Source: Viridothelium virens (taxonomy: Eukaryota > Ascomycota > Dothideomycetes > Trypetheliales > Trypetheliaceae). From it: a stretch of 64,000 bases of DNA. Position numbers and translations under genes: made by a program. Position 1 is the first letter of the stretch; each line of letters starts with the position of its first letter. The stretch covers positions 35,499 to 99,498 of the forward strand of contig ML991857.1 of the NCBI GenBank assembly GCA_010094025.1. The letters are read 5' to 3'. The notes under the pieces are model-generated. The model was not told the DNA's origin. It did no database searches and saw nothing but the letters and a program-made list of their open reading frames with translations. Positions 1,628 to 46,406 of the stretch are shown here, piece by piece.

Positions 1628-2830
1628 ATGTCGGGCATGCGATTGCTCAATGTCCATAGCCTTCAAGTTGAAGACTTCACCAAGCGGCCTGCACCACAGT
1701 ATGTCATTCTATCGCACCGATGGGTAGATAACGAGCCCAAGTTTCAAGACTTTGAAGAGATGCATTCACTTCAAGCGACCACCACCAACACACAACGTCT
1801 GGCGGCCTTACGGAATTGCAACAACGGCAACTTTGGGGCGAATGATGGCTTCGCAAAAGTAGCGTGGGCATGCAAAATGGTACGAGAGCGGCAGCACGGT
1901 GTACAATATCTATGGGCTGATACATGCTGTATCAACAAGAACAATCTTGAGGACCCAAAGGAGACGAGTCGGGCGATCAACTCGATGTTCGACTGGTACC
2001 ACAACGCCGTCGAGTGTTATGCTTACCTTGGAGACACGTCTGGGAAGAATGCTATGCGCAACAGTGTCTGGTTTAAAAGGGGATGGACCCTCCAAGAACT
2101 TCTTGCGCCGTCACGTTTGCAATTTTTTGATCAGCGGTGGACGGATCTGGGTACTCGAAGCGATAATATCGATGCGATTTGGGAAGCAACCTCGATCGAC
2201 CAAAAATATCTCAATGGTGATGAGCAGTTCCGAAGTGCCTGCATCGCCACAAAGATGAGCTGGGCGGCGAATCGGACTACTGCCTTGGCAGATGATAGAG
2301 CGTACTGCATGCTTGGCCTGTTTGGTGTCCATATAGAAGCTCCGTATGGTGAAGGCATGAAAGCTTTCCTACGCTTGCAAGAGGAGCTAGTCAACCGGAC
2401 AAACGACGAGTCAATCTTCGCGTGGTACGACGCTTCGATCGTACAAAATGGACTCCTGGCTCCATCTCCGAAGTGCTTTGAGGGCTGCGGACAGTTGACG
2501 GTCAATTCCGCGAAATTTCGGCCACGGAAAAGCTATAGCGCCATTAAAGAGGGCATCGAATTTTGGCTGCCATCTTTCTTGCCAGACCATGCGAACGGTG
2601 CCGACTGGAACGATCTCATAGCCAATAAGCGAAAGTCATTCGATCTTAGGCTCAACTGCTGGAGACCAGATGGAAGAACGGTTGTGATCAAACTTCGGAA
2701 GGAAAAGGGGAAGTGGCGCCGAACGCAGTGTGATCAAGAGTTCACCATCAATAAGGCTCCACGCAGTAGCGAGAGTATTTTCGGAATAGGGACAAAGGCG
2801 AGGCCAGCTCAAATTTCACACAATGTCTGA
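1628..2830 (+). CDS. HET (heterokaryon incompatibility) domain protein
   Basis: A 400-aa intronless protein. The frame can be extended to 1529 only through a TTG; the first ATG (1628) gives the usual HET-domain start, with MRLLNV close to the N-terminus. HET hallmarks appear in order: YVILSHRW (residues 25-32), the YLWADTCCI block, then WYHNAVECYAYL, WFKRGWTLQELLAP and the DDRAYCMLGLFGV block. After that comes SIFAW...GLLAPSP, as in the larger HET proteins. No WD40, ankyrin or NACHT repeats follow, so it is a stand-alone HET protein. Family knowledge: such proteins trigger cell death when incompatible strains fuse. The partner is unknown. It sits alone between two copies of a direct repeat, which suggests an accessory island. 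Confidence 0.88.
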   Translation: MSGMRLLNVHSLQVEDFTKRPAPQYVILSHRWVDNEPKFQDFEEMHSLQATTTNTQRLAALRNCNNGNFGANDGFAKVAWACKMVRERQHGVQYLWADTCCINKNNLEDPKETSRAINSMFDWYHNAVECYAYLGDTSGKNAMRNSVWFKRGWTLQELLAPSRLQFFDQRWTDLGTRSDNIDAIWEATSIDQKYLNGDEQFRSACIATKMSWAANRTTALADDRAYCMLGLFGVHIEAPYGEGMKAFLRLQEELVNRTNDESIFAWYDASIVQNGLLAPSPKCFEGCGQLTVNSAKFRPRKSYSAIKEGIEFWLPSFLPDHANGADWNDLIANKRKSFDLRLNCWRPDGRTVVIKLRKEKGKWRRTQCDQEFTINKAPRSSESIFGIGTKARPAQISHNV

Positions 2831-11735: not shown

Positions 11736-13222
11736 TCAACCGAAGAAGTATGGAATCGCCGCGCTGCCCAACAGTTAGCACATGTCGCACTTTCATTGAT
11801 AGAGTCTCCAAGACTTACGCAATAGTGAAAGTTGCAGTCAATCCGATTAGCGCCTTCGATCTGGCCTTCAGCTGTTCGTGTTCCCTCACCGTTATCTTCG
11901 CCTTCTTCTCAGGCCTTGCACTGCTCGATTCTTGGCCCTCTTCTTCAGCTCCGGTGATCTCTTCTGCCTTCCTCTTTCCCTTCCGCCCAGCTCCCTTACC
12001 GCTAACCTTACCGCTATCATTGCTATCGAGCTTTCTCGCCTCCTCCACCATCTCCTTAGCCGTCCGTACCATCTCTTCTGTGTTTTCCGGGAGTGGTAGA
12101 TCTGAATTACCCTTTGGCATCTCCACCTTGACTTTCGTGTTTGTGACTTCTTCGCCGTTTTCGGCAATCGCAACGCTCGTTTCTACGCCCACCTTGACCT
12201 TATCATCGGCGCCGTCGAGAGCGGGCGGGGATTCGGCGATCGCGTCCTGGAGAGCATTGCTTGTTTCCCTAGTGCTGGCGCCGCGCTGACTGCCTTTTGG
12301 CACGCGTGGCTTGCGTGGACTGGCTATCTTGCGACTTGGGGTGGCGATCTTGGTTGGCGACACAGAGCGCCGAGTGCGAGGGCGCGTGGACGTCGACTCT
12401 GGCACATCTGATTTGGGTGACTTGGGCGATCCTGCAGTACCATTGACGTTGGTACGCGTATTTTTCGCCATGCGGAAAATTGGAGGACTGGAGATATTAT
12501 CGGAGGGGCTTTGGTGGACTGGTTCGGGATCGAGAAGAGCTTGGATCCACAATGTCATGGAATACTCGGTGCCAAGCTCAAGCGCTACGTTGCCAAAAGC
12601 AGTCAGAATGAGCCGTGACGAGTTGTATGCTGTAAGCGTGGAATGTAGGGAGCTTACCCTGATCCGGCGGGATCCAAACATTACCCGCGACTTCATCATC
12701 TGCCGTCGTCTTCAAGCTCGTGATATACTTCCGCTCAGCAGCCTCCTCTTCGAGTGATGCCCAGGGAAACGCGGCCTTGAACATGCCTGTCGCACTGAGA
12801 TAACCGTCACTGCTGCGTCTCTGTACACACAAACGCGTGTTAGTCGGAGAAATTCCGCCGATCGCGACTCACGAATCTCATGCGCTTACCATCAGGAAAT
12901 ATGCTTCAGGAAATTTGCGATTAGCCTGCAGCTGGAAAATACCAGTGCCTTTGAGGTCGGCTGGCAGTGGCACGCGAAGATGCGCATAGTCAAAGACGCC
13001 AAGGTTCTCCTTCCTGGTCGCATTCGCTACGCCAACTTGACCGGGTTTCACATCGAGGTTTGTGCTACCAAGGCGACGACGTTCGACGAGGATCTCCACT
13101 GGATTGTGTGTTAGTGTGTGATGCGGAGTTTTCAGGAAGCTGAGGCTGGACTTGCACTGCGGACTGTGCTCAGGCGTGAGAAGCGGGTTGCGCTTGGAAG
13201 GCAGTGTGCGTCTGGCAACCAT
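11736..13222 (-). CDS. bqt4: Bqt4-like inner nuclear membrane protein with APSES/KilA-N-type domain
   Basis: Exons, reading on the minus strand: 13222-12890, 12820-12658, 12584-11819 and 11763-11736, giving about 429 aa. The N-terminal domain has the Bqt4 signature: ILVERRRLG, NLGVFDYAHLRVPLP, then YFLM joined to RRSSDGYLSATGMFKAAFPWAS across intron 1, and AGNVWIPPDQ/ALELG across intron 2. A long disordered, Ser/Lys/Glu-rich middle follows. The last exon is only 28 nt and completes a hydrophobic tail, ALIGLTATFTIA + AAIPYFFG, that fits the C-terminal anchor of Bqt4, which tethers telomeres to the nuclear envelope. The intron before it starts GCGTAAGT: retention ends the protein at once with TAA. 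A further intron within exon 1 (about 13160-13100) is possible because a branch-site-like CTAAC precedes CAG, but its donor is poor. An APSES transcription factor is less likely given the tail anchor. Confidence 0.82.
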
Positions 13223-14245
13223 TGCGAATGTTGGTGATGGACTAGTGGGTGATTGAAGCTGGTGTATTTGATGGTGAGCGGTTCGACTCCGGGAAATTTA
13301 GACTTGGATGCGCCGGCGCGAATTGAGGGTGAGATCCAAGGCCAGTCCCTGGCAAAGAGGATGTCGCAGCACCTAGAGAACCCGATTACACAGGTCAAAA
13401 GGGAAGCGAGGGCAACTCGATATGGCAAATGTGGAGATGGATCGATAAGAATGATGGTGACGATGGAAGTCGAGCTTATGCGATGAAAGGGTGGAAGTGG
13501 CAGGGTGTCCCCAGCCCATCAGAGCCAGTGTCCGTGTGTCCCTCCACCGCTGAGCTGGCCCGCAGTAGGAAGTGTAATTACCTTAGCACCTTAGTCTAAT
13601 ACACCCACTCCGTACCTAGACGTATTGGGGCAAGTGGGTGGCTGGGATGAGATGATCGATGGAGGAAGCAGTTGAAGATGGCTGGCATCCTTCGGTGCTT
13701 CCTCTATATTCTGTCTTTCTCAACGTGATCAATGCAATGATGAATGATAAGCACATAGAAAGATTTTCTGCTGCGACTCCGTCTACAAGGCAAGCTATTG
13801 CAGCATAACTAATAGGTGTTCAGCCAACCTCGTTTAATTGCCAACTGCCAGCTCGACGAGATAGTAACCCATCGTGCTCGAGTGGACCCATCGCATGTTT
13901 CACTCTCAGACGGACTCACATGAAAAGGGTAAAAGCACAACAGGGAGGGAATACCTGTGCAGCATTTGTGAGCAGGGCGTGGCTTGGTGTTGTCCTTGAA
14001 AAGTGCTTAAGATGACTTTCGCTCGCCAAGCGGTGAGCCTCGTCGCACTCGCCTCGTCGCCTCTAAGCACTTCACCAACCCCACCAAACCCCATTCACTC
14101 CCTACCCATATTCTGTACTCTGTGTCCGTATTCTACTCCCGTAATTCTCTTCTGCCCAGCCTTGGCACACAGTCCAACCTGCGCAGCAAATTTCTGCCCA
14201 CACGGTCAACCTCAAATCTCTTGAGCCCGTAGGCTTCTCATCATC
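13223..14245. other. Divergent promoter region, bqt4-like / RhoGDI
   Basis: About 1 kb between head-to-head genes. Short frames at 13253-13486 and 13906-14094 carry no motif. I see no clear regulatory box beyond pyrimidine-rich tracts ahead of the RhoGDI ATG. Confidence 0.55.
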
Positions 14246-17200
14246 ATGTCTGCCGACCATCACGAGGACGATCTCGCTGTGGAGGGCACGGCTGGGTTCA
14301 AAGTCGGCGAGAAGAAAACAATCGATGAGTACCAAAAACTAGGTAAGTCATATTGGCTGCACCGGAATTCAAGGAAGAGCATCCACTCCATCCTCTGGAG
14401 ACGCGATAAGACGACTACGATTGGCGCGTGTGATTGGATCTGGATTTTGGACTCTGGTACCGCCCAAAGGTTGCACAACCAACCTAGGAAACTTCGACCT
14501 ACCATCCACCATAGATTATTACTTGACGTGCAAAGTTCCATTTGTTTCCTTGCACTATGACGAGAAAAGCACAATTCTTACTCTCCTGGTCCACGCCACC
14601 CTATTTTGGAGACATTCATCGTTGGCCTTGCCAGCGAACTACTCTTCTGGAAACAATAGAAGGTTCCAAGCTTGTGAAGATGGCTCTCAACAGTGAGTGC
14701 GGACATTTGCCAAATTGCTAGGAGTCCAACTGATCCCTCTTCTGATCTCTCCTTCGTTCTTCCTGATACCCTCGAAACTCCTTCCTGTCAACTTGGGAGT
14801 CTTCGTGCCGTAGATCAGACTATATCACAGTGGAAGACGTTGGACCAGAATCCAAATCCTCCATTTATTTTCGAGCTTTACCGGTGTACTTCTACGTGGA
14901 CTCATTCTCCAAGTGTTGTTCTACGGCACACCACGATAACATTTGCCAGTGTTAGCTTGGACAGCGATTATACTTACCTTCGAAATCGAACCAGTTGGAT
15001 TTGTGTCCTTTGAGCTCTACTGGTGGTCCTCCATTGCTTACTCTCAAGGCCTGCGTATCGAATCCACCACATTCATCCGCACACTACAGTACCTTCTTGT
15101 CTTATAATTTTAACGAGCATCACTACGTTGCGAGCTTGGAAGAGCCGGTCTCTATTTCGGCAGACTAGCTTCCGTCTTGTACAAGACGCTCGAAAATGGC
15201 CCCCAGTACCGATGACCATGCGCAAGATCCAATGCCGGGCCCTTCATCATCCCGTCGATATCGACTTCCAGACCTTGAGCTCGGATCTGCGGACTTGAAA
15301 TCGCCGTCGGCTATTGCATCTGACAACCCAGAGAAAGACCAAGCCAATGATTCTTACGTTTGGCATGATGCTCAGGAGGAAATGGCTGGAAATTCTGGAG
15401 ACAAACTCAACCGTCTTGCACTTGCTAGACATCAGACCAAGCTGCCCTTACCCTCTAAAGAAATTCCCGAACATGAGCTTGCACGTTTTCGGTCCGCACG
15501 TTCCTCCAGATGCTTTCACAACGCACAAGAGTTTGACATCATGTCCAAAAATTTCTTTGACAGGCAACCAAGACTCAACCTGAGATACAAGGCGCCGTCT
15601 GAGAATTTGAGAGGCTCGGACGCACAAAGTATTCAGACATTTCAGACCACGCCCAATGCTTATTTCCTTCCAAATGCAATGTCCATTCCTCCACATATTG
15701 ACTGGATCACTCATGCCAGAAGGTCCTGTGGACCGGTGCGATCTGAACCTTCTTTATATGAGGGGCTGTCTGCTTCTCAAGGGCTTGACCATTTGTCGGA
15801 CACTGCACTTGCTCAGATGAGTGAATTCCATAAACAAGTCTACCACTCGTTATCGAAGCATATTGCGGAAAAGCAGTCAGGCCCGACAGCAGGCTCAAAC
15901 GAATACGATCCTTCACATCAATCCTCAGCCAACGACAATCATCTCAGGAAAGACAGCAGATGGAACGAGAAGCCTCCCTCTCCGTACGTCCAAGGCGGCC
16001 AGCCGATGCAGCAGCCAGGACAACATTCTATGTTGTGCGAGGATCGTATCAACGACAGGACAGTATCGAATTTGGAAGATGCTTCATTTCCTTTTCCAGA
16101 GGCACCTGGTGACCAAAGCTCCTCCAAAGCCGGAAAGCTACCCCTGTCTAACACTGACTCCTCAGAGCAAGCTGCTCGCCAATATTCTGTTGGTATCGAA
16201 GAAGCCACTTCTTCAGTGAACCTAGCGGAAAGCCCCAAAGCTCGCTTGATCCACAATTATCGGCCAACGTATTCACGCTCTTCCAATAAATCTTATGACA
16301 GGAATTGCTTCAAAGCAGTCGCGGAAGAAAGCCGGGAATCCAATACGCGAAGTGAAGTTGCTGAAGGAAGCGCAACGGATCAGCCAAAACTTGTTCCATA
16401 CGGAACTGCGACTGGATACTTCGCTTATGATTCACGGAAGCCCCCTCGACCAACTATGCATCGCGGACCAGACAGTTCCGGTTCCGCCAACAGTTTCAAT
16501 GCAAAAAAATTCACCTCGAAAGGTGTATATATGAGGGGTGCTCTTGGCGTACCGTCTCACTTGAAGCAATCGAAGCCGAAAAGTGAGGGGAAAGATTCAT
16601 CTGCTCCAGACGATGGCGAGCAGCAAAGAGGGACTGACAATGATCAGCCTCCAGATCCTTCTGAAACCAATGCAAGTGCAGTTCCGGCCAAATCGCCCAA
16701 AGGGAAGCCAAAGAAACCAATTGGCATTACTATTGAAGAGCCTAGAGTCAAACCCTCGAAATCTTGGAGGTACTCAGAAGCCTTTACACAGATGAAGAAG
16801 CATGAGGCCGGACTGAGAAAATTGGTTGCGAAGTTGGCGAGAAAGCCCTCAGTAGACGGTAAGCAAAGCACTGACATGGGGTCTAAGTTGACCAAGACCC
16901 GATCGCCATACCCGGACGAAAACGTCAAGTCTGGGAGGGTCCCTCTTTTAGCTAAGAAGCTTTCTTCCAAAGTATTGAGGAGAAAGAGCAGTCCGGACTT
17001 ACAATTACATGTTCACCCGGCAGAGAGAGTTCCGCCACCTCCAAGTGCCAACGATGGAAACGCGGCTTCAGATATCAACAACAACAGCAGTATAGAGCTC
17101 ATCCGAATCCGGAGCAAGGACCCTCAAGGACGCCCATGTAAACCCAAGTCCAGAGCATGAGTACTGACGCGTGGTATCTCCTGCAGATCAGAACGACGAG

Positions 17201-18001
17201 TCCCTGCGGAAGTGGAAGGAAAGTCTCGGGCTCGGCACAGGCGAAGACATCAGCGACTCGAGCGATCCACGCCGCGTCATCATCAAGAGCTTGGGACTCG
17301 AGGTTAGCATTTTCCCAGTCCCCTCCTCTCTCTTTCTGCTCCTTTGCCCCCCCCCAAACCCGTTCCTACACACTTCCCTTTCACAGACGACTCTGGAAAT
17401 TGATGTGAGCTAATGCATGCCGCCATGGCGGGTTTCTACTGCAGGTCGAAGGCCGCCCTGACATCATCATCGACCTCACGGGCCCCGGAGCCGTCGAGGC
17501 GCTCAAAGAGAAGCCCTTCACCATCAAAGAAGGCGCCAACTTTCGAATGAAGGCGACGTTCAAGGTGCAGCACCAGATCCTGTCCGGGCTGAAGTACGTG
17601 CAGAATGTCAAGCGGGGGGTCATCAGCAACAAGATGCAGGAGATGATCGGGTCGTACTCGCCCAATACGAAGGAGAAGCCGATCTATGAGAAGAAGTGTG
17701 AGTTTTGTCGGTTCCTTTTTTTTTTCTTCTTCTTTGTGGGAGACTATGATGATTTCCACGGCCTCGTTGGCGGTTGCGACGAGGCGCGGCATGGAATACC
17801 GAAGGCAGAGTTCTTGCTCGTGCTTTATGAAGTCTCGAATAAACATGGCTGATACCCCTGCTCTCTGTAGTTGAATCCGAAACGGCTCCTTCTGGTATGA
17901 TCGGGCGCGGCCACTACAACGCTGTCAGTAGATTCATCGATGACGATAAGCACGTGCATCTCCAATTCGAGTGGAGCTTTGACGTTAAAAAGGACTGGTG
18001 A
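14246..18001 (+). CDS. rdi1: Rho GDP-dissociation inhibitor (RhoGDI) with a giant first intron
   Basis: Four exons: 14246-14342, 17187-17302, 17445-17697, 17871-18001, giving 198 aa, the normal size. Exon 1 encodes the typical N-terminus (MSADHHEDDL, then GFKVGEKKTIDEYQKL). Exon 2 starts DQNDESLRKWKESLGLG and ends KSLGLE. Exon 3 starts VEGRPDIIIDL and carries the immunoglobulin-like fold, including the YVQNVKR strand. Exon 4 ends FEWSFDVKKDW. The protein extracts prenylated Rho/Rac/Cdc42 GTPases from membranes and keeps them inactive in the cytosol. Intron 1 (14343-17186, 2,844 nt) is exceptionally long for a fungus and contains a 654-codon ORF on the same strand. Splice phases agree throughout (GTAAGT donor, CTGCAG acceptor for intron 1), so the split is real unless the assembly is wrong. 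Confidence 0.92.
15196..17160 (+). CDS. Disordered 654-aa protein nested inside RhoGDI intron 1
   Basis: A single open frame of 654 codons from ATG 15196 to TGA 17158-17160, wholly inside the 2.8-kb first intron of the RhoGDI gene and on the same strand. It stops 26 nt before the RhoGDI exon 2. The protein is Ser/Pro/Lys/Asp-rich and mostly disordered. It has two denser patches: LNLRYKAPSENLRG (about residue 130) and a basic helix-prone stretch around EAFTQMKKHEAGLRKLVAKL (about 525-550). I recognise no domain, signal peptide or membrane segment. The frame is far too long for chance at this base composition. It could have its own promoter in the ~850 nt of intron upstream, or be made from an alternative RhoGDI transcript. 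Confidence 0.7.
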   Translation: MAPSTDDHAQDPMPGPSSSRRYRLPDLELGSADLKSPSAIASDNPEKDQANDSYVWHDAQEEMAGNSGDKLNRLALARHQTKLPLPSKEIPEHELARFRSARSSRCFHNAQEFDIMSKNFFDRQPRLNLRYKAPSENLRGSDAQSIQTFQTTPNAYFLPNAMSIPPHIDWITHARRSCGPVRSEPSLYEGLSASQGLDHLSDTALAQMSEFHKQVYHSLSKHIAEKQSGPTAGSNEYDPSHQSSANDNHLRKDSRWNEKPPSPYVQGGQPMQQPGQHSMLCEDRINDRTVSNLEDASFPFPEAPGDQSSSKAGKLPLSNTDSSEQAARQYSVGIEEATSSVNLAESPKARLIHNYRPTYSRSSNKSYDRNCFKAVAEESRESNTRSEVAEGSATDQPKLVPYGTATGYFAYDSRKPPRPTMHRGPDSSGSANSFNAKKFTSKGVYMRGALGVPSHLKQSKPKSEGKDSSAPDDGEQQRGTDNDQPPDPSETNASAVPAKSPKGKPKKPIGITIEEPRVKPSKSWRYSEAFTQMKKHEAGLRKLVAKLARKPSVDGKQSTDMGSKLTKTRSPYPDENVKSGRVPLLAKKLSSKVLRRKSSPDLQLHVHPAERVPPPPSANDGNAASDINNNSSIELIRIRSKDPQGRPCKPKSRA

Positions 18002-18530
18002 TGACGGGACAAAATTGGAGAAGCTGGAGTATTTGTGCTTGTGAAGGTGGCCGTAAGTTGCTATGCGTTGCGTTGAGATGTTGCTGGATGGCGTGATGGT
18101 TGACTCGTGTGAGACGGAGGTTGGCTATCGTTGAGCAGCGCTGATATCGTACAACTTAATACTGGTTCTTGTCTCAAACTCGTCAAGCTATTTCACGACA
18201 TGGACTTAAGGCTGCGATATTGATGGGTGTGATGAAAGCTCAATAATCACCCATGCAAGTACGCGTGAGGCTCCTTCGAAAGACTCAACTATGATGAACT
18301 GGCAACCAAAATTGCTACTTTAATGTCGGGATTATGGAGTTAGCGGCGTGTGGAATAGCTAGTCAAATGTCCAACCACAGCAAATATTCTATTAAGGCGG
18401 AAGAAATGTAGCTGATTGTATCATTGATTCCTTTATCGCATAACAAGTAGCACTAACATCATTGTGAAGACCTCATATCCCTCTGTGTAGTCAAGACCAC
18501 TACCTAATACCAACCTCCTCCCATGGTCAG
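18002..18530. other. Convergent 3' region, RhoGDI / thioredoxin
   Basis: Tail-to-tail space of about 530 bp. It must hold both polyadenylation regions; AT-rich patches occur at 18370-18470. No gene seen. Confidence 0.6.
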
Positions 18531-19193
18531 CTACTCAGCCTTCGTAGGCTCCCCTCCCTCCGTCTCGACCTCCTTCTTGATGGCGGCCTCGAGCACCTTC
18601 GGGTTGGCGCCGACGACCTCGGCCACCTTCTCGCCATTCCGGAACAGGATGAAGGTCGGCATGGCCCGGATGCCGAGCTCCTGCGCGACGTCGGGGACCT
18701 CGTCGACGTCGAGCTTGTAGAAGGCGGCGGTGGGGTAGGTGTCGGAGAACCTGAAGAACGACGCACCAGCGGTTAGCATTTTGAAATGTATAATTGAAGT
18801 ATATAGGGAAAGAGAGAGGGGGGAAGGGAGAGATTGAGAAGAAGCTTACTTGACAACTTGCGGCGCGATGATCTTGCAAGGCCCACACCAGGTTGCGAAG
18901 CAGTCGAGCACAATCAGCTTATCTTTCTGTGCAAGGACCTCGTCAAATTCGGTCTTTCTGTGTAAATGCGCAGGTCCGTTAGCCGGTGTTCTCCTCAAGA
19001 TGGCGCTGCTGCTTCTTTGATGGTCGACATACTTGCTGAGATTGTGGACCCCCTCTTTACCCATGATGGCGTGGAACTGGCGAATCCCCTGATAGATTGG
19101 TTTCTGAGTAGATAGTGTTGTGGAAGTTGAACCTCGCGCGGTGGTTCTTGTAGCTTGGAATAGACTTCGGCGTAGAACTTGAGGACTGAGCAT
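18531..19193 (-). CDS. Thioredoxin, possibly with mitochondrial and cytosolic forms
   Basis: Exons 19193-19033, 18957-18850, 18750-18531; 162 aa from the first good ATG. The catalytic WCGPC is at about residues 77-81 within [17 protein letters not shown]; the cis-Pro segment [17 protein letters not shown] follows. Both introns fall in the usual phases (NLSK/KTEF and VVK/FSDT). The N-terminal ~43 residues are Arg/Ser/Thr-rich, lack acidic residues and look like a mitochondrial presequence. An in-frame ATG at residue 44 (MGKEGVHNL) would give a normal cytosolic thioredoxin of 119 aa. The acidic tail ([13 protein letters not shown]) is slightly longer than usual. It reduces protein disulphides with NADPH-thioredoxin reductase. 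Confidence 0.92.
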
Positions 19194-20794: not shown

Positions 20795-23584
20795 TTAGTT
20801 GTTCGATTCTCCAGGTGACTGACTCGAGATATTAACAAACGACTGACTCATTGGACTCGCTGGATTGGAACTCATTCCAGCGGAAGATGCTCTACTGTTC
20901 CTCTTCGAATCTCTTTTGGGCAATTCAAGTAGCCTCGCACTCCCTGCGCTCACCTGCCTGGAGTGATGCTTCAGATTAATGCTCTCGGCCCGTTTCATCT
21001 GCACAGGTTCATGTTCTTCTAGCGGAGAATCTGGTTCGTCGCCCTCAGATTCGGCAACTTGAGAATCTATTCTCTCAAGACCATTCGATGGAGAGTCGGT
21101 GGGCGTGGCATAATCCTCTTCGGCACTCTGCGCTTGATGGAATTGGTTTAAGAGACCTTCAGAAGATTTGACACGCTGGGACCGCTCGATCACAGTAGGC
21201 CTTCGTTCCGAACCTGCTCGAAGTAACGTCTGATCCAACCCACGCGGGTCGCGCGGGTCAACGTCAATAGCCTCCGCACCGCCAAGAGCCTGGCCATTTC
21301 CTTTGTTACCGAACTTCCGGTTCCTCGGTATCTGTCCATCATCATCTTCAGGTGCTGGTGTCAATCGCTTGAAGTACTCCTCTTCTGGCATTCCGAGCTC
21401 TTCGTAGCTTCCACTGTAATCATCGCTTCGAGGTCGCTTCTCTGGGCTTTCCCCACTACTGAGTCGGTGCGAGCTCCGTGCCTGTTTCGATGTCCGCCGA
21501 GATGGTTTTCCGGAGAGCCACGAGCCTTCACTGTCAACCGATGCGAGAGATTGCGACATCAGTGCGCTGGATGCACGTCCTGGAGTTGGGGAAACGGGAG
21601 AGTCGGTCCGTTGCGACAACATAGTATCCCCAGGGGATGCGCGTGAGGAGCCACCGGTGGGCTTTGCTTCAGCACCAGCAACGGCTTGCTTTTCGATGGG
21701 TCGAGGCATTGGTGGTAGAGCGGTCACCTCTGGAGACTGTCTTCGAGAATCAGGGGGCGACAGCGGCATCTCAGGCAGGTCTTCTCTGAATTTGGATTGC
21801 GTACGGTGAGGTACGCCTGAACTTCGCCGTCGTTCCGAAGGCTGTTGTTGAAGGTGCGCCGGGATCTGTCCACGCATAGACTCTCGCGACGTATTCGAAA
21901 ATGACACTTCGGACGGGTTTCCCTTGTTCTCCGACTCCCGTTTCCTCTGGCTACTTGTGCCACGACGGAAGAAGGAAGTCCACGTTCCTACACGGCGAGA
22001 GGGGCTTGAGCTGAGCTCTGTTGGCGCTTTCCGCTTGACTGCTTCGTTCGGGGGAGCAGCTACGTCTGGAGTACTTGTATGGCGAAGGTCTGTAACTTGG
22101 GAAAGACCTGATGGTGCACGAGTTTGCTCCGGTGATACTGGTGGAGTATGTTGTATACTCGCTTGCGACAAGCGTCCAACTGGCGCCGTCTCCAGCTTGG
22201 GTTCGTCAACTGGTGACTCTGGAGCTGCCTTCGCTTGTGCCTCCATCGAGGTGTACATTGGAGTATCGATGTGCTGCTCTGATTGAGCAGGGTATGCGTT
22301 TCGACTTTCAGCAGTGGCTGCAAAGGGAATTTGCGGAACCGAGTCCTGGCCTATTGACTCAACCGTTGTTGCGGTCTGAGCGATTGGTTCCTGGTTCTCC
22401 TTTTCCCCTTTAGACTTCGGTTCGTCTTCCACGTCCTTGGTAAGCGGTTGCTCAAGACCTAAGCCAACAGGTTCTTTCCTTCCTTTCTTATCCTCCAGTA
22501 TATGTCCAGATCGTTGAGATCTTGCTGGTGACGAGTCACCTCGTTGTCTCCTCATCTCTTGGTAAGCTTGCTTATCTGCCCGCCTTTGTAACCTTCTCCT
22601 AATCCTTTCTTCCTCCTGTGCCCTCTTCTTCTCTTGTCGCCTCTGATCCCGCTCCATTAACGCACGAAGTCCACCAGCATCAAGATCATCTGCCAAATCG
22701 TCGATGGTCCTGCTCTCCTTAAGCGTTTCCTTTGTAACAGTACGCTGCTTCTCTTTTTTGGAGTCGGACTGTTGGGAGGTTCCATAGATGGTGCTATGAT
22801 GACTATGATGACTCCCAGGCAACACTTGAGGGCTGCTGGAATAGCGCAGGCGAGGTCGAGGAGAGAATGCGTCAAATCCATGAATCATAAAGGTTCGCTG
22901 TTCCGAGATGCCAGACATTGATGAATGGATTGAGTCTTCCAATGGTAATGAGACGTTTGAGTCTGGTCGTTCGCCTTGTCGACTAGAGTTATTCCTGAAT
23001 TTTTTGCTTTCCCTTCTCAAGATTCCATTGTCTTGACCAGCCGGTCTTTTGGGGATGGGAATAGGCTTGCTCAAATTTCTGATTTCTTCCTCGCGGATAG
23101 GATCCGACCTTCTTTTCTTGCTAGACTTACGTCGCTGGACATTAGCCTCACTCTTGGACATGAGCTTGGTAGGACGTTGGAGTTTGCCTCTTTTTTCATT
23201 AGGCGGTGTCTCGGATCCTGAACCACTTTGATGAGAATTGGTCGGTATTTCTGAGCGATCGAGGTTCACTGGTCTTAGGTGTGGACTCGCACCAATTCCT
23301 CGATCAGCGGGTAGCGCAGTGATGTTTTCGATACTTCCTCTGTGTGGCAAAAGGTCTGTCGGGTATCTCTTAGTATTTTTTTGCGATGCACTATCTTTAG
23401 TGGATGTTCGTCGAGATCGTTGACTCTGCCGACTGCTAATATTCTGAGGATCCGCTGCCTGGAGTGGCCCAGGCCTTACGTCAAAGGAGGATTGTTCCGG
23501 CTTCTTCCCTTCTGCGACAGGCTGTGGCCCCGCCTGCTTCACTTTGCTACGCCGGCCCCGGCGCCCGAAGGGCCACATGGGCAT
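20795..23584 (-). CDS. Large disordered protein with N-terminal MWPFGRR motif (929 aa)
   Basis: Intronless. It starts MPMWPFGRRGRR, a short hydrophobic-basic N-terminus of the kind seen in a family of uncharacterised filamentous-fungal proteins; the second Met is also a possible start. The rest is Ser/Pro/Arg/Glu-rich and disordered. One strongly charged helix lies at about residues 305-350 (GGLRALMERDQRRQEKKRAQ and onward). A short acidic motif, YEELGMPEEEYFKRL, sits at about 735-750. There is no signal peptide, membrane segment or enzymatic motif. A cytoskeletal or polarity scaffold is possible from composition alone, but that is a guess. Shadow frames on the plus strand are ignored. Confidence 0.75.
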   Translation of the reverse strand: MPMWPFGRRGRRSKVKQAGPQPVAEGKKPEQSSFDVRPGPLQAADPQNISSRQSQRSRRTSTKDSASQKNTKRYPTDLLPHRGSIENITALPADRGIGASPHLRPVNLDRSEIPTNSHQSGSGSETPPNEKRGKLQRPTKLMSKSEANVQRRKSSKKRRSDPIREEEIRNLSKPIPIPKRPAGQDNGILRRESKKFRNNSSRQGERPDSNVSLPLEDSIHSSMSGISEQRTFMIHGFDAFSPRPRLRYSSSPQVLPGSHHSHHSTIYGTSQQSDSKKEKQRTVTKETLKESRTIDDLADDLDAGGLRALMERDQRRQEKKRAQEEERIRRRLQRRADKQAYQEMRRQRGDSSPARSQRSGHILEDKKGRKEPVGLGLEQPLTKDVEDEPKSKGEKENQEPIAQTATTVESIGQDSVPQIPFAATAESRNAYPAQSEQHIDTPMYTSMEAQAKAAPESPVDEPKLETAPVGRLSQASIQHTPPVSPEQTRAPSGLSQVTDLRHTSTPDVAAPPNEAVKRKAPTELSSSPSRRVGTWTSFFRRGTSSQRKRESENKGNPSEVSFSNTSRESMRGQIPAHLQQQPSERRRSSGVPHRTQSKFREDLPEMPLSPPDSRRQSPEVTALPPMPRPIEKQAVAGAEAKPTGGSSRASPGDTMLSQRTDSPVSPTPGRASSALMSQSLASVDSEGSWLSGKPSRRTSKQARSSHRLSSGESPEKRPRSDDYSGSYEELGMPEEEYFKRLTPAPEDDDGQIPRNRKFGNKGNGQALGGAEAIDVDPRDPRGLDQTLLRAGSERRPTVIERSQRVKSSEGLLNQFHQAQSAEEDYATPTDSPSNGLERIDSQVAESEGDEPDSPLEEHEPVQMKRAESINLKHHSRQVSAGSARLLELPKRDSKRNSRASSAGMSSNPASPMSQSFVNISSQSPGESNN

Positions 23585-37617: not shown

Positions 37618-40600
37618 ATGAAGATGCGGTCTGCCGTTCTTCTCAAGGTGCTTGTCGCCTCAAATATCGGCTGGGCAGCAGGTTCACGCCATCCAATCGA
37701 AAAGGGATATGGTAAAGATACCCATGATCAACGTTGCATTTATTGTGATTTCTGATGGATCCTTTTCGTTGACCACATCGACAGATACCCCTGGAGACGA
37801 CGGAAATGATGTCAATATACACATTGACGTGCCGGATGGCCAGACGATCGATAAATTTCACATGTCCGCCGCGTTTGGCAAGGCAGGGTGTTGTCCGAAC
37901 TGTCCATCAGGCTCGAATGATTGCTGTAACAAGAGCTGTACTTCGAGCGTCCTATCATCTCTGAGCACGAGTGTTGCCAGCTCATCAACAATATGGCCGT
38001 CAGCATCCACGACGAATGGCACTTCTATCCACAGCACGACTATCCCGGCATCTCTTTCTACAGAATCCTTTCACTTAGTACCGGGAACCTCGGTCTACAG
38101 CTCTACAGTCTCTACCCCTGGGCCCTCAAATTATACAGTACCTCTTACCACAGCGTCGACTACTTCAGCGGGTACGCCTATGAGCTCAACTGCTGGACCT
38201 TCGCGTTCCCATTCTTGTACCTTGTGCTCAGTGAATCCATCGACGAACTTGACCGCATCTACGATTTCAACTACTACTGAGACCACCACATTCGTTCATT
38301 ATCCCAGCACGATCAAGGAAAACTCTACCTCTATCAGGCCGACAAAACACATCGATTACAACATCACCACTAGTACCGTTGCGAATTCCGATTCCGTAAA
38401 GCATACCACCCATCACCACTCGAACACAACAGGCTTGTCTGAACCTATTACCACTAGCTCAGTTCCGTTCTATAATGGTACTGTGTCCAGTACATCCCAG
38501 CCAGTGGCGTCTCCGGGTTCCGGTACTACATCAGAGCAGCCCTCTACCACAACTTCCGTGATCTATCCACCGTCCAATCAAACAACGGATACTCAAGCGG
38601 GGCCTAGTTCTGCGATCTCGAAGAATCTCACAAATACATCTGTGTCTATCATCACTGATGTTCCGTTGTCGACCACTCTGGCAGTATACAATACGACAAC
38701 GGGTGTGCCGTCCCCAACTCCGACACCTGATCCCGCATCTGGAACCTCGCAAAACTTCACATACGTAACAAGCGGGCCGTCTTCCGGGGTCTCCAAGAAC
38801 TTTACGTATCCAGCTACAGCCAGCACTGCTGACGTTTCTTCTCTGAATACCACGGTTGGTTATAACGCCACAACAAATGTGACACCGTCACATCCGACAA
38901 CTGAACCTTCGTCTGCGAATACCACGGTTGGTCATAACGCGACAACTTCGCCGCCACCGTCAGATCCGACCACTGAACCCACGTTCACGAACACGACGGC
39001 TGCTTACAATTTGACAACAGACGTAACGTCTCCATATCCGACGGCTGGGCCTTCGTCTGCAGTTTCGAAAAACTTCACACATTCGGCTACAACTAGCAGT
39101 ACTGACGTTCCTCCTGTAAACGCCACGACTGGCTACAATGCGACAACAGATGCGACACCGTCATACCCAACTATCACACCTTCATCAGTGAACACCACGA
39201 TTGGATACAACGTGACAACAGATGCGACACCATCAGATCCAACTACCAGGCCTTCGTCAGTGAACACCACGATTGGATACAACGTGACAACGGACGCCGC
39301 ATCACCATATCCGACGGCCGGACCTTCATCTGCAGTCTCGAAGAATTTCACATATCCCGCTACAACTAGCACTGCCGGTGTTCCGCTTTCAAATGCCACT
39401 GTTGGCTACAATACGACGGGCGAGCCTACATCCGGAATTGCGAAGAACTCTACCTACCCAAGTGCGATAAGCACAGCCAGCATCCCATTTTCGAACACGA
39501 CGACTGGCCAAAATACCACAAGTGTACCTCCCCCATACACAACGAGTGGGCCTACCTCTGCAATTCCGAAAAACTATACAAGCCCGACTGTGACTAGCAC
39601 GAACGAGATTCCATTGTCAAATACCACCGGTACCCACAATACTACAGTTCAGGTCACGCACCCAACGGACGGGCCCACATCTGCAATCTCCAAGAACTTC
39701 ACAAGTCCAGTTCTATCCAGCACTGGTGAGGGTCCCTTACCGAATACTACAGCTGTCTCCAACGCGTCTTCCAATGCAACGCCCTTCACTTATCCAACTG
39801 ACGGACCTTCTTCTGCAGTTCCGAAGAACGCCACGAGCACGACTGTGACTGGCACCGAAATAGCTCCCTTCCCAAATACCACAGCTGTCTACAATACGAC
39901 TGCAGATGAGACACCCATCACGTACCCAACGGGTAGACCTTCGACAATTTCGGACAACTTTACGACTCCAGCTATTGTCAGTACTACCAACGCTTCGGTC
40001 TTGACTGCGACAGCAGTTTACAACACGAGTACAATTTTAGTGCCCTTTACGTATCCAACGGATGGGCCTTCCTCTGCGATTTCGAGAAATTTGACAAGTC
40101 CCACGGTTGTCAGCACTACCGATGCTACGTTCTTAAACACTACAGTAAGCTATAACACCACAAGCAGCACATCAACTCATTTCACAACAAGCACATTTGT
40201 GCCCGTGTCGGATACTACGACTACGCAGACCTCTGCCCCGACATCATATGACACTAACAGTGTGAACCCAACTGGACATGGCAACGGCAACGGCACCAGT
40301 GCTTCAAGGCAGCCCAAAACCAGTACAAGGAAAACAAGGACAAGAAAGCCCAAGCCCACGGGGTCGACAGGTCCAACGGGTAATTCTACTCTTGGAGGGG
40401 AGAGATTCACCAACACTACTCGTGTCGACACTGTGCCATTGACAACGACGACTACGGCACCGTTTATCACGGCCAGTACCAGGTCTATGTATACTAATAC
40501 TTCAAGCTCGCCGGTGACTCAGACCATTACTTATTGTCCTGCAGCCGGGAACCTTTACGGCGATGCTGTCACGGATGCTGATGTCACTCAATTAGTAATA

Positions 40601-43486
40601 GAATGCCCGCACAAAACGCCAGCCACGAAACGGAGGAGATGGGAATACACGCAAACAAGCACAAGCTGCTCCACAAGAACAATTGTTATCAGTGGTCCAG
40701 ACTTGCCAACTCGTCCTACGCCACCTCCTGGCACGGTTTGGCACACAGTTACTAAGTGTGTTGAATCAGTCTCGCACCCGCCGGTCAATACTACGATTCC
40801 TGAGTTGAAAACGACGATACCGCTCGAGTCCATTTGGTATTCGACTTCATTTCCACCAAAAACTTCAAGTAGTCCAGGTATGACCATGCACTCAGTGTCG
40901 CAGCCCACTTGGGAAAGCTCCAATTCTAATCATGGTTGTCACAAGCATTGTAACTTTACAATTACTAATATTATACAAGTGACGTACGTTGACAGTTCAA
41001 CGACGACGGAAAGCCGTAAGCCAACAACCCATTCAAGATCTGGCAACGCAACAATAAGTATGTCAGCACCGACGGAAAGCCGCAAGCCAACAACCCATTC
41101 AGGATCCAGTAATGCAACAACAAGCACGTTCACAACTTGGAGTCCTCCGGCTACAACGAGTCCACCGGCCACCCACTATACAACAGTGATTACAAAGTGT
41201 TCCTCGAAAATCTGCAGCTATGTTACAAGCACTGTTCCTGTAAGCCCTTCGACTTCGGGTACCGTACCTACTGGTTCCAATACTACCGCAAGCCAGCCGC
41301 CTTCCTCATGGAGTCCTACGACCACTTATCCTGTCACTCCATCTACGTATGAAGTTTCCTCTACGACTCATCCGTCTTCAGGGAGCACACCAATTATTCC
41401 AGCGAGCCCGTCGGTCCCGGTATCGCCTTCCACACCACAAGACTCTCATCCTTCGACTTCAATTCCTGGATCGACCGGAAGTAAGACAAGTGGTTATATC
41501 ACGGCTTCGACCTCGGAAACGGATTCGCATTATGAGTCTGTTCCTACGCCCTCTCAGCCGTCTACCATAGGCACGACTTCGTACACCCACAGTACTTATG
41601 TTGTTACGAGTAGTGGCACTACGATAACAACAACAGTGAAGATTCCATGCACCAGCTCCTCATCGCGGACTGAGGTACCTCCAATTTCACCGCCAGAATC
41701 AGGCCCCCTGCCACCTGTGACGCCAACGCCTACTTCCCCATCTACTCCAGGTTCAACTTCATATACGCAAAGCACGTATGTTGTTACAAGCAGTGGCAGC
41801 ACCATAACGACCACGGTAGAGGTCCCGTGCACTACCTCGTCATCTGAGATCCAGATACCTCCAAGCTCGTCAACAGTACCAGGTACACTACCTCAAGTGA
41901 CGCCTTCAGGGCCACTATCTTCTCAGACAGGTTCCACGAGTCAGGGTGCATCACCTCCTGAAAGTCCTCCTGCAACGCCAACAACGGTCTCGAGTACAAC
42001 TCCAGCAGTGCCGCAAGGCCCCACTACTACAACAGTCACCACTCAAGAATGTCATTCTTGCACCAAAACCCATGCCATTCCAAGTTCAAGCGCCCCTTCC
42101 CAAACTACGACATCCACTTCGACTCCAGGGCAGCCCAGTAGTAACGAGATTCCGTCAACCTCCACGGCCACTACCAAGAATACAAGGACTGTTCTCTCAT
42201 CTTCTACGGTTTATTCCACTTTCCCTAGCTCTTTCCCGCCCTCCGTTCCTACCTTGAGCAGTTCACCAACGATATCTATACCGAGTAGCAGCACTTCCCT
42301 GTCAACAGCGCCGCTTATCAGTACAACATCTCAGTCCACTGTTCCAGGAACTAGTCCAATTTCGTCGCAGTCATTCTCACCCAGCAGCTCTTCTTCGCTT
42401 CCATTGAGCTCTAATGGAACACCTCCTGTGTCTTCTGGTCCAAGTACAAGCTCGAGCGTTTCTCAGCCCCCTCGTCCATCTGGCAGTTCCTCTCCACCAG
42501 CAACACCTGCTACTGAAACGCCTCCTCAGTCTCCCACTTCAAACACCAGTCCCAGCATCCCGCACTCTTCTGGGACAGCCAGTAGCTCTTCGCAGCCATC
42601 AATACCTGGAAGTGGAACGCCTCCAAAGTCTTCTACTCCAGCTACAAGTCCCAGCATTCCACAAACCTCGGGACCAGGCTCGAGTTATAGTTCTTTCACA
42701 GGTCAAACGTCGACGCCAACTGCACCCAGCAGCCAAAGCGCTCCTCCAACTCCTAGTTCCACGCCATCTGCACAACCAACGTCTGGGCCGGCTACCATAC
42801 CATCTACACCACCTACGTCCGGACCGGCTACTACTCAATCTACGTCACCAACATCGGGTCCTGCAACTACTATATCCGCACCGCCTATATCCAGCCCTGT
42901 CGCAACTCCATCAGCAGCGCCGCCGACATCTGGTCCCGCCACTACTTTATCAGCTCCGCCATCCTCTAACCCATCCGGACCACCGACGTCTGGTCCCGCT
43001 ACTACTCCATCAGGACCACCGACATCCAGCCCCACTTCATCACCACCCACGCCGCCAGCATCCACTCCCACCACAACACCATCCGCACCGTCTCAATCCG
43101 GTCCGGCCTCTCCTCCATCAACGCCAAGCAGCCCCTCCAACCCAGCTTCTGCACCCTCTGCTCCGCCCACGCCAACACCGTCCACTCCCGGCGGGCCCAG
43201 CGCTCCTACCTCGAGCCCTACTGCTCCGCCATCTACAACGCTCAAGCAGACGCCTCCATCCTCAAGTCCAGCAAGCTCTACTGTCACCTCCACGCGTGAG
43301 CATTCTTCGAGCAGCGCGGCTCACACCCAACAGAGCTCGACGGGACAGCCTAGCACGGCTACCTCGGCTGGGCCGTCATCCTCGCCGTCAGGGCCTGTGG
43401 TCGTGGGTGGTGCGGGCTTGCTTAGCGCACGGTCTGGTTTCGTGATGATGGTCGCAGGCTTGGTTGCAGTGACAATGGGGATATAA
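37618..43486 (+). CDS. Giant Ser/Thr/Pro-rich GPI-anchored cell-wall protein (adhesin-like)
   Basis: Exons 37618-37711 and 37785-43486 (73-nt intron); 1,931 aa. The upstream exon restores a signal peptide (MKMRSAVLLKVLVASNIGWA); the long frame alone lacks one. After the splice comes GYDTPGDDGNDV and a Cys cluster CCPNCPSGSNDCCNKSC. Next is a very long Ser/Thr/Pro-rich, N-glycosylation-site-rich body with three kinds of internal repeats (listed separately). A few Cys-bearing strands interrupt it (TITYCPAAGN, TTVITKCSSKIC, ITTTVKIPC). The end, SSPSGPVVVGGAGLLSARSG then a hydrophobic stretch ending VAVTMGI, is a typical GPI-attachment signal. Heavy O-mannosylation is expected. Its likely place is the outer wall; adhesion is inferred from architecture. 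No ligand-binding domain is recognised. Confidence 0.88.
38590..40180 (+). repeat. Tandem ~40-48-residue repeats in the wall protein
   Basis: About ten to twelve degenerate copies. Each contains a SSA(I/V)SKNFT-like block, then a ST block, then NTT(V/I)GYN(V/T)T-like, then a P-rich spacer. Some neighbours are nearly identical in DNA: 39185-39219 and 39257-39291 match over 35 bp, 72 bp apart. This indicates recent slippage or unequal crossing over. Every copy keeps several N-x-T sites. Confidence 0.85.
41010..41930 (+). repeat. Two further repeat types in the wall protein
   Basis: A pair of ESRKPTTHS-containing units lies at about 41010-41120. A pair of ~60-residue units, each with STYVVTSSG(T/S)TITTTV then PCT, lies at about 41575-41930. 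The second type resembles Cys-bearing beta-strand repeats of fungal wall proteins. Confidence 0.75.
42755..43120 (+). repeat. PTSGPATT-type short repeats near the C-terminus
   Basis: Repeated P-T-S-G-P-A-T-T-x-S-x-P-P units form a Pro-rich stalk just before the GPI signal. DNA copies differ mostly at third positions. Confidence 0.8.
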
Positions 43487-44328: not shown

Positions 44329-46406
44329 CTAATCCCACGCCTTGGCTGCATCGTTTTCAGAGTCTACCTCGTCCATATTGTCACTCGCATTTCCTCCGTC
44401 ACCCCCACCACCCAGCGGAGTTTCTCGGATCACTCCATTATCATCTACCTGATCGACGGTTAGCCCAAACGCCTCAAGTAGTTTCCTGTGCGGCGCCGGA
44501 GCCTTGTATCCGCGCATCAGCTCATTGGGGAGAACAGTGTAGAAGGACGGGCACAGCTTTTTCAAGGAATCTAAGAACCAGATTTCCTCTGCCTCGTCAT
44601 TCTCCACGTGGTTTGACAGTGCTCCAGCCTCAGGCCCCTTCATGACGCACAGTTTCTTGAGTGTGGCGATAAGCTTTGTGCCCACGAGCTCAGTATGTCC
44701 GACGTAGGCAGGCTCCGGAAGAGACTCAGACTCCGATTCTTCTTCATGAGCAGGTCGCGGAGGAGGCTGAGTAGGTCGGTGCGTGGTTAGTGGGCTGACG
44801 TGGAAGTGCTGCAGGATGTCATCTTCGAGCCAGAGAGTGTAGGTCTCGTTGGGAAGGTAGTCCGGATGGGAAGGATCTGTGGTCCTGAGATTGGCAGGAA
44901 GATCATACTCGACAAAGTCGGGCTCAAGCCACGGTTTCAGGACAACCTTGCCCAAGGGTGGAAGCTGTGTGCCGGAGAGCTCGTGGCGGGCATAGAGATC
45001 GTGGACCTCGGGATCGGGAGGGATAATGGAGACAACTTCAAGGCCTATTGTCTTCTCGTCCACAACAGTAAACTCAAGTTTCCTATTCTTTGCTACCGCT
45101 GCAAGTTGTGCTTCTGTGCCTTGAGCCGCTATTGCGGTCTTGATGATTACGCGCGCTACCTCGTCTGAATAAGCAGGTTTGAAGCGAAACTCATCTTCCC
45201 AATCAGTACCCTCGTCGGCCGCCAATGCATCGCGGTCCGTGCCGAAGAGAATGCTGCAAGCAGTATTGAAAGGGCCGCGCAGCATTCCGCGTAGGTGATA
45301 GATCCCGGTCAGCTCGATAGAAGCACGGGTGCACAGAGCTCGTGCGGCATAGATGAAATCTTTCCAGTCTGGCGCGACATCATGCGTCAAAAGGTAGTTG
45401 TAAAAGTTTCGAAGAATGTTAGTAGCCTTTTCGATTTTTGCCGGGGATTCGACGTCCGTACTGAGATAAGCAGGAGCGTAGGACGATCTAATCAATATCA
45501 GCATCTGCTACTTCGTCATTTCAATCTGTCTAGCTGCGGAAAATGAGACTGTAACTTCAAGATGCGAAGAGGATGACGAAGGCTCTGAACGTACAAGAAG
45601 GCCATCGCAACACCTTCGAAGTCAACGATGAATTTATATCCATCACTTATGTCCTCAAAACACCAGTGAGTCGCCATTCTCTCTGCGATGTCTTCGGCTG
45701 TTAGGTCTTCCAAGTCCTCTTTACTTAGTTGGCCTGAAATTCTTGGTCTCTGCTCGATCCCGCCAAACTTCATCCATCCGTTGAAAATCCTTGCAGTATC
45801 TTCGTGGAGCGTACGTCTCGCCATGTAGCGCTGTACAGCCCTTTCGATCCGATCACCGAAGGTATACTGTTCCGGATCATATATGTCACGTTCCTGTTCA
45901 TAGGTCTCTGGAGTGATAGGCGGATCAGTATAATATTCCTCAAAGCCTGTAGGCTTGAGTAAGCCTTTCGTCATGCCTCCCTGGGCAAGAGCCTCGCGTC
46001 GAGCGACCTCCTTCTTCTCCGGTTCAACTTTCAAAGGGAGTCTTAGCGGGTCCCGTCGGCGGATGGCTTTGTCATCGACGACTTCAAGCTTAGTGGAGAA
46101 CTTGAGAGCCTCAACAACTTCAGTGTAGGGTCTGTATTTCCTCATTCGTGGGAAGCCGCAGATACTCCGAATGGAGACTGGAAGGTTCTGCTGACCATCG
46201 CATTTTGCCAGAAGATGGGCATCAGTAGGGAGATTTGCGTCAGAGAAGTAAAACTCCACTTGACGAATAACGTCGGCATTTGACCAGTTGCGTTCCTTTG
46301 CTGGTGCGTCAACACGGTCCTCGTGGGACGAGGTACTGCTTGCAGGATGCTGATGACTCTCCGTTGGAGACATTTGAGGAGGATCAGCGGAGGATGTGGC
46401 AGCCAT
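44329..46406 (-). CDS. arb1: La-motif / Arb1 (Argonaute siRNA chaperone) fusion protein
   Basis: Exons 46406-45595 and 45487-44329; 656 aa from MAATSSADPP (the frame extends further up but without the feel of protein). Residues ~42-120 are a La-type winged helix: NADVIRQVEFYFSDANLPTD, LPVSIRSICGFPRMRKY, then ALKFSTKLEVV and IRRRDP. From ~140 the Arb1 domain begins: KPTGFEEYYTDPPITPE, RIERAVQRYMARR, FGGIEQRP, then DFEGVAMAFLSSYAPAY across the splice and ILRNFYNYLLTHDV. The Arb1 domain runs to ~590; an acidic tail follows. In fission yeast Arb1 belongs to the ARC complex, which holds Ago1 with duplex siRNA. The La motif would add RNA 3'-end or structured-RNA binding. Both domains lie within exon 1 without a break, so this is not an artefact of joining exons. 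It is divergent from IPMK. Confidence 0.86.

Follow-up and report, generated by a model that had tools for sequence, protein, structure and literature searches.

A probable protein-coding gene nested on the same strand within the first intron of RhoGDI in Viridothelium virens

The analysed stretch (hereafter the window) comprises 64,000 nt of contig ML991857.1 of the lichen-forming fungus Viridothelium virens (Trypetheliaceae), in which the first intron of the RhoGDI gene contains a complete 654-codon open reading frame (ORF) on the same strand. The ORF lies between two host exons that join in phase, and the 3' end of the intron is crowded, with 26 nt between the stop codon of the nested ORF and the intron end. 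On the sequence evidence, it is fairly probable that this ORF represents a real gene with its own start and stop and that its transcript overlaps RhoGDI at the 3' end; the nested protein is conserved across the three genera of Trypetheliaceae observed. The initial annotation had described RhoGDI exons joining in phase from 14342 to 17187 across 2,844 nt, as well as the same-strand ORF ending 26 nt ahead of the acceptor; our coordinates and the junction codon G/AT agree with both descriptions (here and below, a slash marks the splice position). The host gene and the nested ORF are arranged as follows.

14246..14342, + strand: RhoGDI exon 1, with the start codon and the N-terminal arm (MSADHHEDDL...DEYQKL), homologous to the N-terminus of human RhoGDI1 and to exon 1 of the Aureobasidium models
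14343..17186, + strand: RhoGDI intron 1, 2,844 nt, GTAAGT...CTGCAG, host of the nested ORF
15196..17160, + strand: nested ORF, 654 codons, uninterrupted, Ser/Pro-rich, mostly disordered by prediction
17158..17160, + strand: stop codon TGA of the nested ORF
17162..17186, + strand: TACTGAC (branch-point-like) and CTGCAG (acceptor) of RhoGDI intron 1, immediately 3' of the nested stop
17187..17302, + strand: RhoGDI exon 2, beginning DQNDESLRK
17445..17697, + strand: RhoGDI exon 3
17871..18001, + strand: RhoGDI exon 4 with the stop codon

The host gene is a complete, ordinary member of the RhoGDI family (Rho_GDI, PF02115), N-terminal arm included, and it is unusual in its first intron only. Its four exons encode 198 amino acids (aa) that cover positions 5-193 of the 193-position Pfam profile (E-value 4e-64) and align with human RhoGDI1 (PDB 1cc0_E) over residues 7-198, i.e., from within exon 1 through the C-terminal end. 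Since both the full domain and the human alignment begin inside exon 1, this exon is genuine. Intron 1 opens with GTAAGT from 14343 and closes with the acceptor AG at 17185-17186, while the codon split across the exon 1/exon 2 junction encodes Asp and keeps the frame; TACTGAC near 17162 is taken by us to be branch-point-like. Three exon matches to Rho_GDI are found in the whole genome (30.7 Mb, 175 contigs), all of them at this locus. Convergent with RhoGDI, a gene in two pieces occupies 18531-19193 on the reverse strand; judging by eye from its CGPC motif, it is presumably thioredoxin-like.

As for the size of intron 1, its 2,844 nt compare with 33 other introns of the genome having 49-286 nt (median 66, none above 500), which were derived from exon matches of the proteasome, ubiquitin-conjugating, and Ras families; these lengths are estimates from domain coordinates and cover introns inside domains, with many first introns outside their view. 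For the estimates, 65 of the 102 listed matches were used, most of which have a neighbouring match on their contig. RhoGDI introns 2 and 3 have 142 and 173 nt, respectively. A search of Rfam for structured RNA in 13000-19000 gave no matches up to E 1. The search for insertion scars turned up a single direct repeat (14 nt) and three imperfect inverted pairs, none of which flanks the nested ORF.

According to its composition and its relatives, the nested ORF is a coding sequence. The longest same-strand open stretch in intron 1 reaches 663 codons vs a maximum of 300 over 1000 dinucleotide shuffles; together with the relatives in two other genera described below, this excludes a chance origin. 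The codon score of the nested ORF (0.103) is above those of 25 of 33 comparison ORFs (mean 0.081, minimum 0.005) and above all of their wrong-frame scores (mean −0.056, maximum 0.061), the right-frame and wrong-frame values of the comparison set overlapping slightly. This set consists of non-overlapping ORFs of at least 300 codons from 200 kb of the same genome. The nested ORF's own wrong frames score between −0.08 and 0.018. Its GC content at third codon positions (GC3) equals 0.47 vs 0.76 for RhoGDI. In the genome search its sole match is itself, and searches of Pfam and PDB gave zero matches. The structure predicted by AlphaFold is mostly disordered (4 sequences, mean predicted local distance difference test, pLDDT, of 41), with helices of some confidence at residues 202-227 and 527-548; the nested protein is perhaps adaptor-like. 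Two segments of the protein can be singled out.

15799..15876, + strand: predicted helix at residues 202-227, inside a conserved segment (23/50 identical to Bathelium over 201-250)
16390..16554, + strand: best conserved block, residues 399-453, LVPYG...F.YD.R ... KxFTxKGVxxxGALGVP

The protein search proposed in the initial annotation did recover relatives. With the nested ORF alone, a single one was found, P0001 (393 aa, from a metagenome-assembled genome of Trypethelium eluteriae), which is identical to the last 393 residues of the ORF-RhoGDI fusion as read from the window. The search with fusion residues 420-813 returned 18 proteins, including those of Bathelium mastoideum (816 aa) and Bogoriella megaspora (792 aa), both Trypetheliaceae; it could find proteins of ~450-1,420 aa containing the searched part, so separate, unannotated, or missing nested genes were largely invisible to it. 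In these two models, located on contigs of 271 and 702 kb, the ORF is joined to RhoGDI exons 2-4, with 649 and 626 residues ahead of RhoGDI, respectively. After removal of the RhoGDI part, Bathelium matches the nested protein with 217.0 bits over residues 9-643 of 647 (best of 500 shuffles 10.3 bits) and Bogoriella with 51.1 bits over residues 320-487 (best of 500 shuffles 8.0 bits). A global alignment of the 647 residues gives 205 identities to Bathelium and 145 to Bogoriella; 75 residues are common to all three, and conservation is best at 401-450. The ATGs at which the three lichen models start are aligned, and RhoGDI is preceded by 626-649 residues in each. A later search with a profile of both this ORF and its Aureobasidium counterpart was filled by Aureobasidium candidates, and Bathelium and Bogoriella are absent from its list. 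The earlier suggestion of a lineage-specific gene thus holds insofar as relatives surfaced in three genera of Trypetheliaceae only, by searches in which separate or distant relatives could escape detection. A 52-residue match in a bacterial contig collection was taken as chance, and a viral contig collection contained no relatives of the nested protein.

The stretch upstream of the nested ORF suggests a start of its own.

14343..15195, + strand: ATG-poor stretch before the nested ORF, putative leader or promoter, with ATGs only at 14557 (54 codons) and 14680 (13 codons)

The 853 nt that separate the exon 1 donor from the nested ORF contain 2 ATGs vs 11.2 expected, and 0 of 2000 shuffles are as low; the last 513 nt contain none vs 5.5 expected (P 0.0015). 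The reverse-strand counterpart CAT is present at a normal level in the same stretch (16 vs 14.3 expected), and the 646 nt upstream of RhoGDI itself contain 11 ATGs vs 11.0 expected. Among 35 long ORFs from the 200 kb and the window that have a full upstream stretch, the nested ORF has the lowest upstream ATG count, 2 vs 5-24 in the other 34. We read this depletion as the mark of a scanned 5' leader, which would belong to the nested gene. Splicing of exon 1 in frame ahead of the nested ATG was considered and rejected: among the direct single-splice routes examined, none of the 12 in-phase AGs is open to the ATG.

Under the reading as a separate gene, RhoGDI transcription would begin upstream of 14246, and splicing would remove the first intron (2.8 kb) along with the nested gene. 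Transcription of the nested gene would start between about 14,250 and 15,190, with translation running from its own ATG at 15196 to its own stop at 17158-17160. Because this stop lies only 26 nt from the intron end, the nested transcript can hardly end inside intron 1. It would rather pass the RhoGDI acceptor and end either at the RhoGDI 3' end or at an earlier site, for which one candidate is listed below.

17838..17843, + strand: AATAAA in RhoGDI intron 3, candidate early polyadenylation signal for the nested transcript

The RhoGDI exons would then serve as the 3' untranslated region of the nested transcript. As each transcript would give either RhoGDI or the nested protein, a link between the two outputs is expected, and coupled expression of the nested gene and RhoGDI should follow from this geometry. 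Spliced introns downstream of a stop codon could expose a transcript to nonsense-mediated decay. If its downstream introns are spliced, the nested transcript could undergo such decay, and the nested protein would be kept low.

A parallel is provided by Aureobasidium, which belongs to another order and has an ORF of 424-442 aa in RhoGDI intron 1, also on the same strand. Like the nested ORF, it has its own ATG, is uninterrupted, and has been fused to RhoGDI by gene predictors. In contrast to this shared arrangement, sequence similarity between the two is undetectable: homology was tried with hhalign and rejected (probability 0.1, E 0.79). The Aureobasidium protein is also predicted to have a partly ordered core, at low confidence (mean pLDDT 49), and has zero matches in PDB at E 0.001. 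In black yeasts, the gene in this RhoGDI intron seems to be a different one. The profile search with both kinds of ORF gave 24 proteins, namely 12 stand-alone ORFs (assigned as Aureobasidium-like by similarity), 11 Aureobasidium RhoGDI fusions, and P0001. In 6 of the 11 fused models the order is RhoGDI exon 1, ORF, exon 2. A C-terminal G-x-R is present in all 12 stand-alone ORFs, whose stops are inferred from protein ends, whereas 10 of the 11 fused models lack this end and have junctions spread over about 20 codons. Over their 268 shared residues, fused P0006 and stand-alone P0028 show a single difference; beyond these they diverge, with P0028 continuing through the conserved end. The Aureobasidium ORF thus looks constrained, by comparison of its protein sequences, up to its own stop; such a conserved, fixed end resembles a gene's own C-terminus and not an intron. 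An Aureobasidium-type gene was also sought elsewhere in the V. virens genome, where one weak match (36%, E 0.0086) was rejected as chance; by eye, the ORF at this site is homeobox-like, and in a small local comparison its match to the most divergent Aureobasidium ORF was weak (29% identity, E 0.001).

Alternatively, a second RhoGDI isoform may exist whose long 5' exon, an alternative first exon, is the nested ORF; we regard this as possible but rather unlikely. An internal promoter would then be combined with a splice to exon 2 from one of two sites, giving a protein of up to 813 aa in which a disordered N-terminus replaces the first 32 residues of RhoGDI.

16859..16864, + strand: best-scoring donor-like site in intron 1, ACG/GTAAGC, score 9.43, rank 1 of 114 GT sites, in phase with exon 2
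17138..17143, + strand: weak donor-like site CAT/GTAAAC, used by the public fused model, score 2.6, rank 20 of 114, 49 nt before exon 2

A good acceptor is thus available along with donors in phase, the nearer pair being 49 nt apart, which is at the low end of the introns estimated in this genome. The public models make this fusion in three lichen genera and in Aureobasidium, and a common 3' end is expected in any case. However, the donor by which the public model joins 17137 to 17187 is weak: 23 of the 24 training donors score higher than its 2.6 (their range is 2.4-10.8; 22 of the 24 were inferred by a consensus-favouring rule, so the matrix leans that way). For comparison, the exon 1 donor (14343) scores 8.07 and has rank 3 of the 114 GT sites. 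Splicing from 16859 would remove ~99 codons from the end of the ORF, a part in which the protein is conserved with Bathelium. The junction residues also differ among the three lichen fusion models (Y, KD, and NEG), in addition to the spread of the Aureobasidium joins noted above. Moreover, the conserved Aureobasidium C-terminus would have to be intron, free to drift, and a fusion that omits exon 1 would lose part of the N-terminal arm. Donor conservation, which was examined on proteins only, leans against an alternative first exon, with in-phase donors present, the model's donor weak, and the junctions variable among lichen and Aureobasidium models. Given junctions that vary from species to species and a weak donor in the present case, we think that the public ORF-RhoGDI fusions in the three lichens are mostly prediction artefacts. 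The initial annotation had also offered another product of the locus as an alternative; public models do show such a fusion to exons 2-4, but the weak donor, the differing junctions, and the conserved Aureobasidium ORF end argue against it.

A mixture of the two, in which most transcripts use the ORF's own stop and a minor share is spliced to the fusion, is compatible with the presence of signals of either kind; as the minor form is backed by gene models alone, we consider it very improbable. That the ORF is no gene at all, being an open intron stretch, an assembly join, or a consequence of a misread exon 1, would suit an intron length far beyond the measured range and the lack of Pfam or PDB matches, but is scarcely credible given the codon usage and chance tests, the protein relatives that adjoin RhoGDI exons 2-4 in Bathelium and Bogoriella (contigs of 271 and 702 kb), and the same arrangement in Aureobasidium.

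Several observations nevertheless weigh against an independent nested gene with its own stop. Each of the three models from Trypetheliaceae is a fusion with RhoGDI (the search could find fused ones only), and a strong in-phase donor, 16859, lies inside the nested ORF. The Bogoriella similarity is significant over about a quarter of the nested ORF only; Bathelium and Bogoriella were compared at the protein level only. The linkage of exon 1 and the ORF in Trypetheliaceae comes from this one assembly. As for the Aureobasidium ORF, it is not recognisably homologous, so its conserved end serves as an analogy only, and the fused model P0009 keeps G-A-R at the ORF end, running from ...FRWMGAR straight into LRKW; the end of the ORF may thus be retained in P0009, which however skips the beginning of RhoGDI exon 2. 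Finally, the ATG depletion extends over nearly all 853 nt upstream, and the other long ORFs have no ATG-poor leaders, hence such leaders are unusual in this genome.

The most interesting part of the finding is the occupied intron in another order, which suggests a special intron rather than one accidental insertion. With no detectable similarity between the two ORFs, this intron was entered either by two genes or by a single one that has diverged beyond recognition. The RhoGDI models of Elsinoe (P0008) and Monosporascus (P0012, P0013) also have extra coding sequence ahead of exon 2; first introns of RhoGDI may thus be occupied in Xylariales and Myriangiales too, to which we give little weight with one or two models each. 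Similarity of the nested ORF to these stretches was checked with hhalign and found unsupported. Tentatively, and with slightly less than even confidence, we propose that RhoGDI intron 1 is a recurrent nest in Pezizomycotina, holding unrelated or unrecognisably diverged genes in at least two orders (Trypetheliales and Dothideales; perhaps Myriangiales and Xylariales) that lie on the same strand and run into RhoGDI. A Rho regulator and a fast-evolving protein would then share a locus and a 3' end and be made at each other's expense.

Genes with alternative first exons follow a general pattern of an internal transcript with common downstream exons. The internal transcript proposed here would similarly have exons 2-4 and the 3' end in common with RhoGDI; unlike in that pattern, it contains a full ORF with its own stop beyond the candidate donors and a GC3 unlike that of the host. 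Intron-nested protein-coding genes are mentioned for vertebrates, flies, and nematodes in PMC3488318. Such animal genes likewise are complete protein genes inside a host intron, with no recognisable relation to the host (PMC3488318). The present case differs from them in belonging to a fungal genome with introns of ~66 nt, in lying on the same strand, and in having 26 nt left, so that there is no room for a separate 3' end. A literature search, covering few subscription journals, returned no paper visibly about a gene nested in a fungal RhoGDI, and the portion of PMC5640933 that was covered has no word beginning with "Rho" and no "dissociation inhibitor". A conserved same-strand nest in a short-intron fungus, lacking the space for a 3' end of its own, raises the question of how one locus makes two unrelated proteins. 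The public models of 300-816 aa, annotated as hypothetical or "E set domain-containing", are suggested to be chimaeras hiding two genes.

RhoGDI domains were also observed in other contexts. Proteins of Backusella, Rhizopus, Gilbertella, and Cokeromyces (P0015, P0017, P0018, and P0019) are annotated as combining RhoGDI with SH3 and PX domains, the latter as in Bem1-like polarity scaffolds; they could be either real fusions or merged neighbours. P0014 (871 aa) has PF17111 and PF12757 together with a C-terminal RhoGDI domain without the N-terminal arm.

Among other genes of the window, a 929-codon ORF at 20795-23584 (−) has no Pfam match up to E 1 and is charged and of low complexity by eye, and an uninterrupted ORF of 1,925 codons at 37709-43486 (+) has no Pfam match at E 0.001. 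The window also contains a HET-domain gene at 1628-2830 (+), a gene for the Arb1 siRNA chaperone subunit at 44329-45504 (−), and the gene for the polyadenylation factor CLP1 at 49400-51040 (−).

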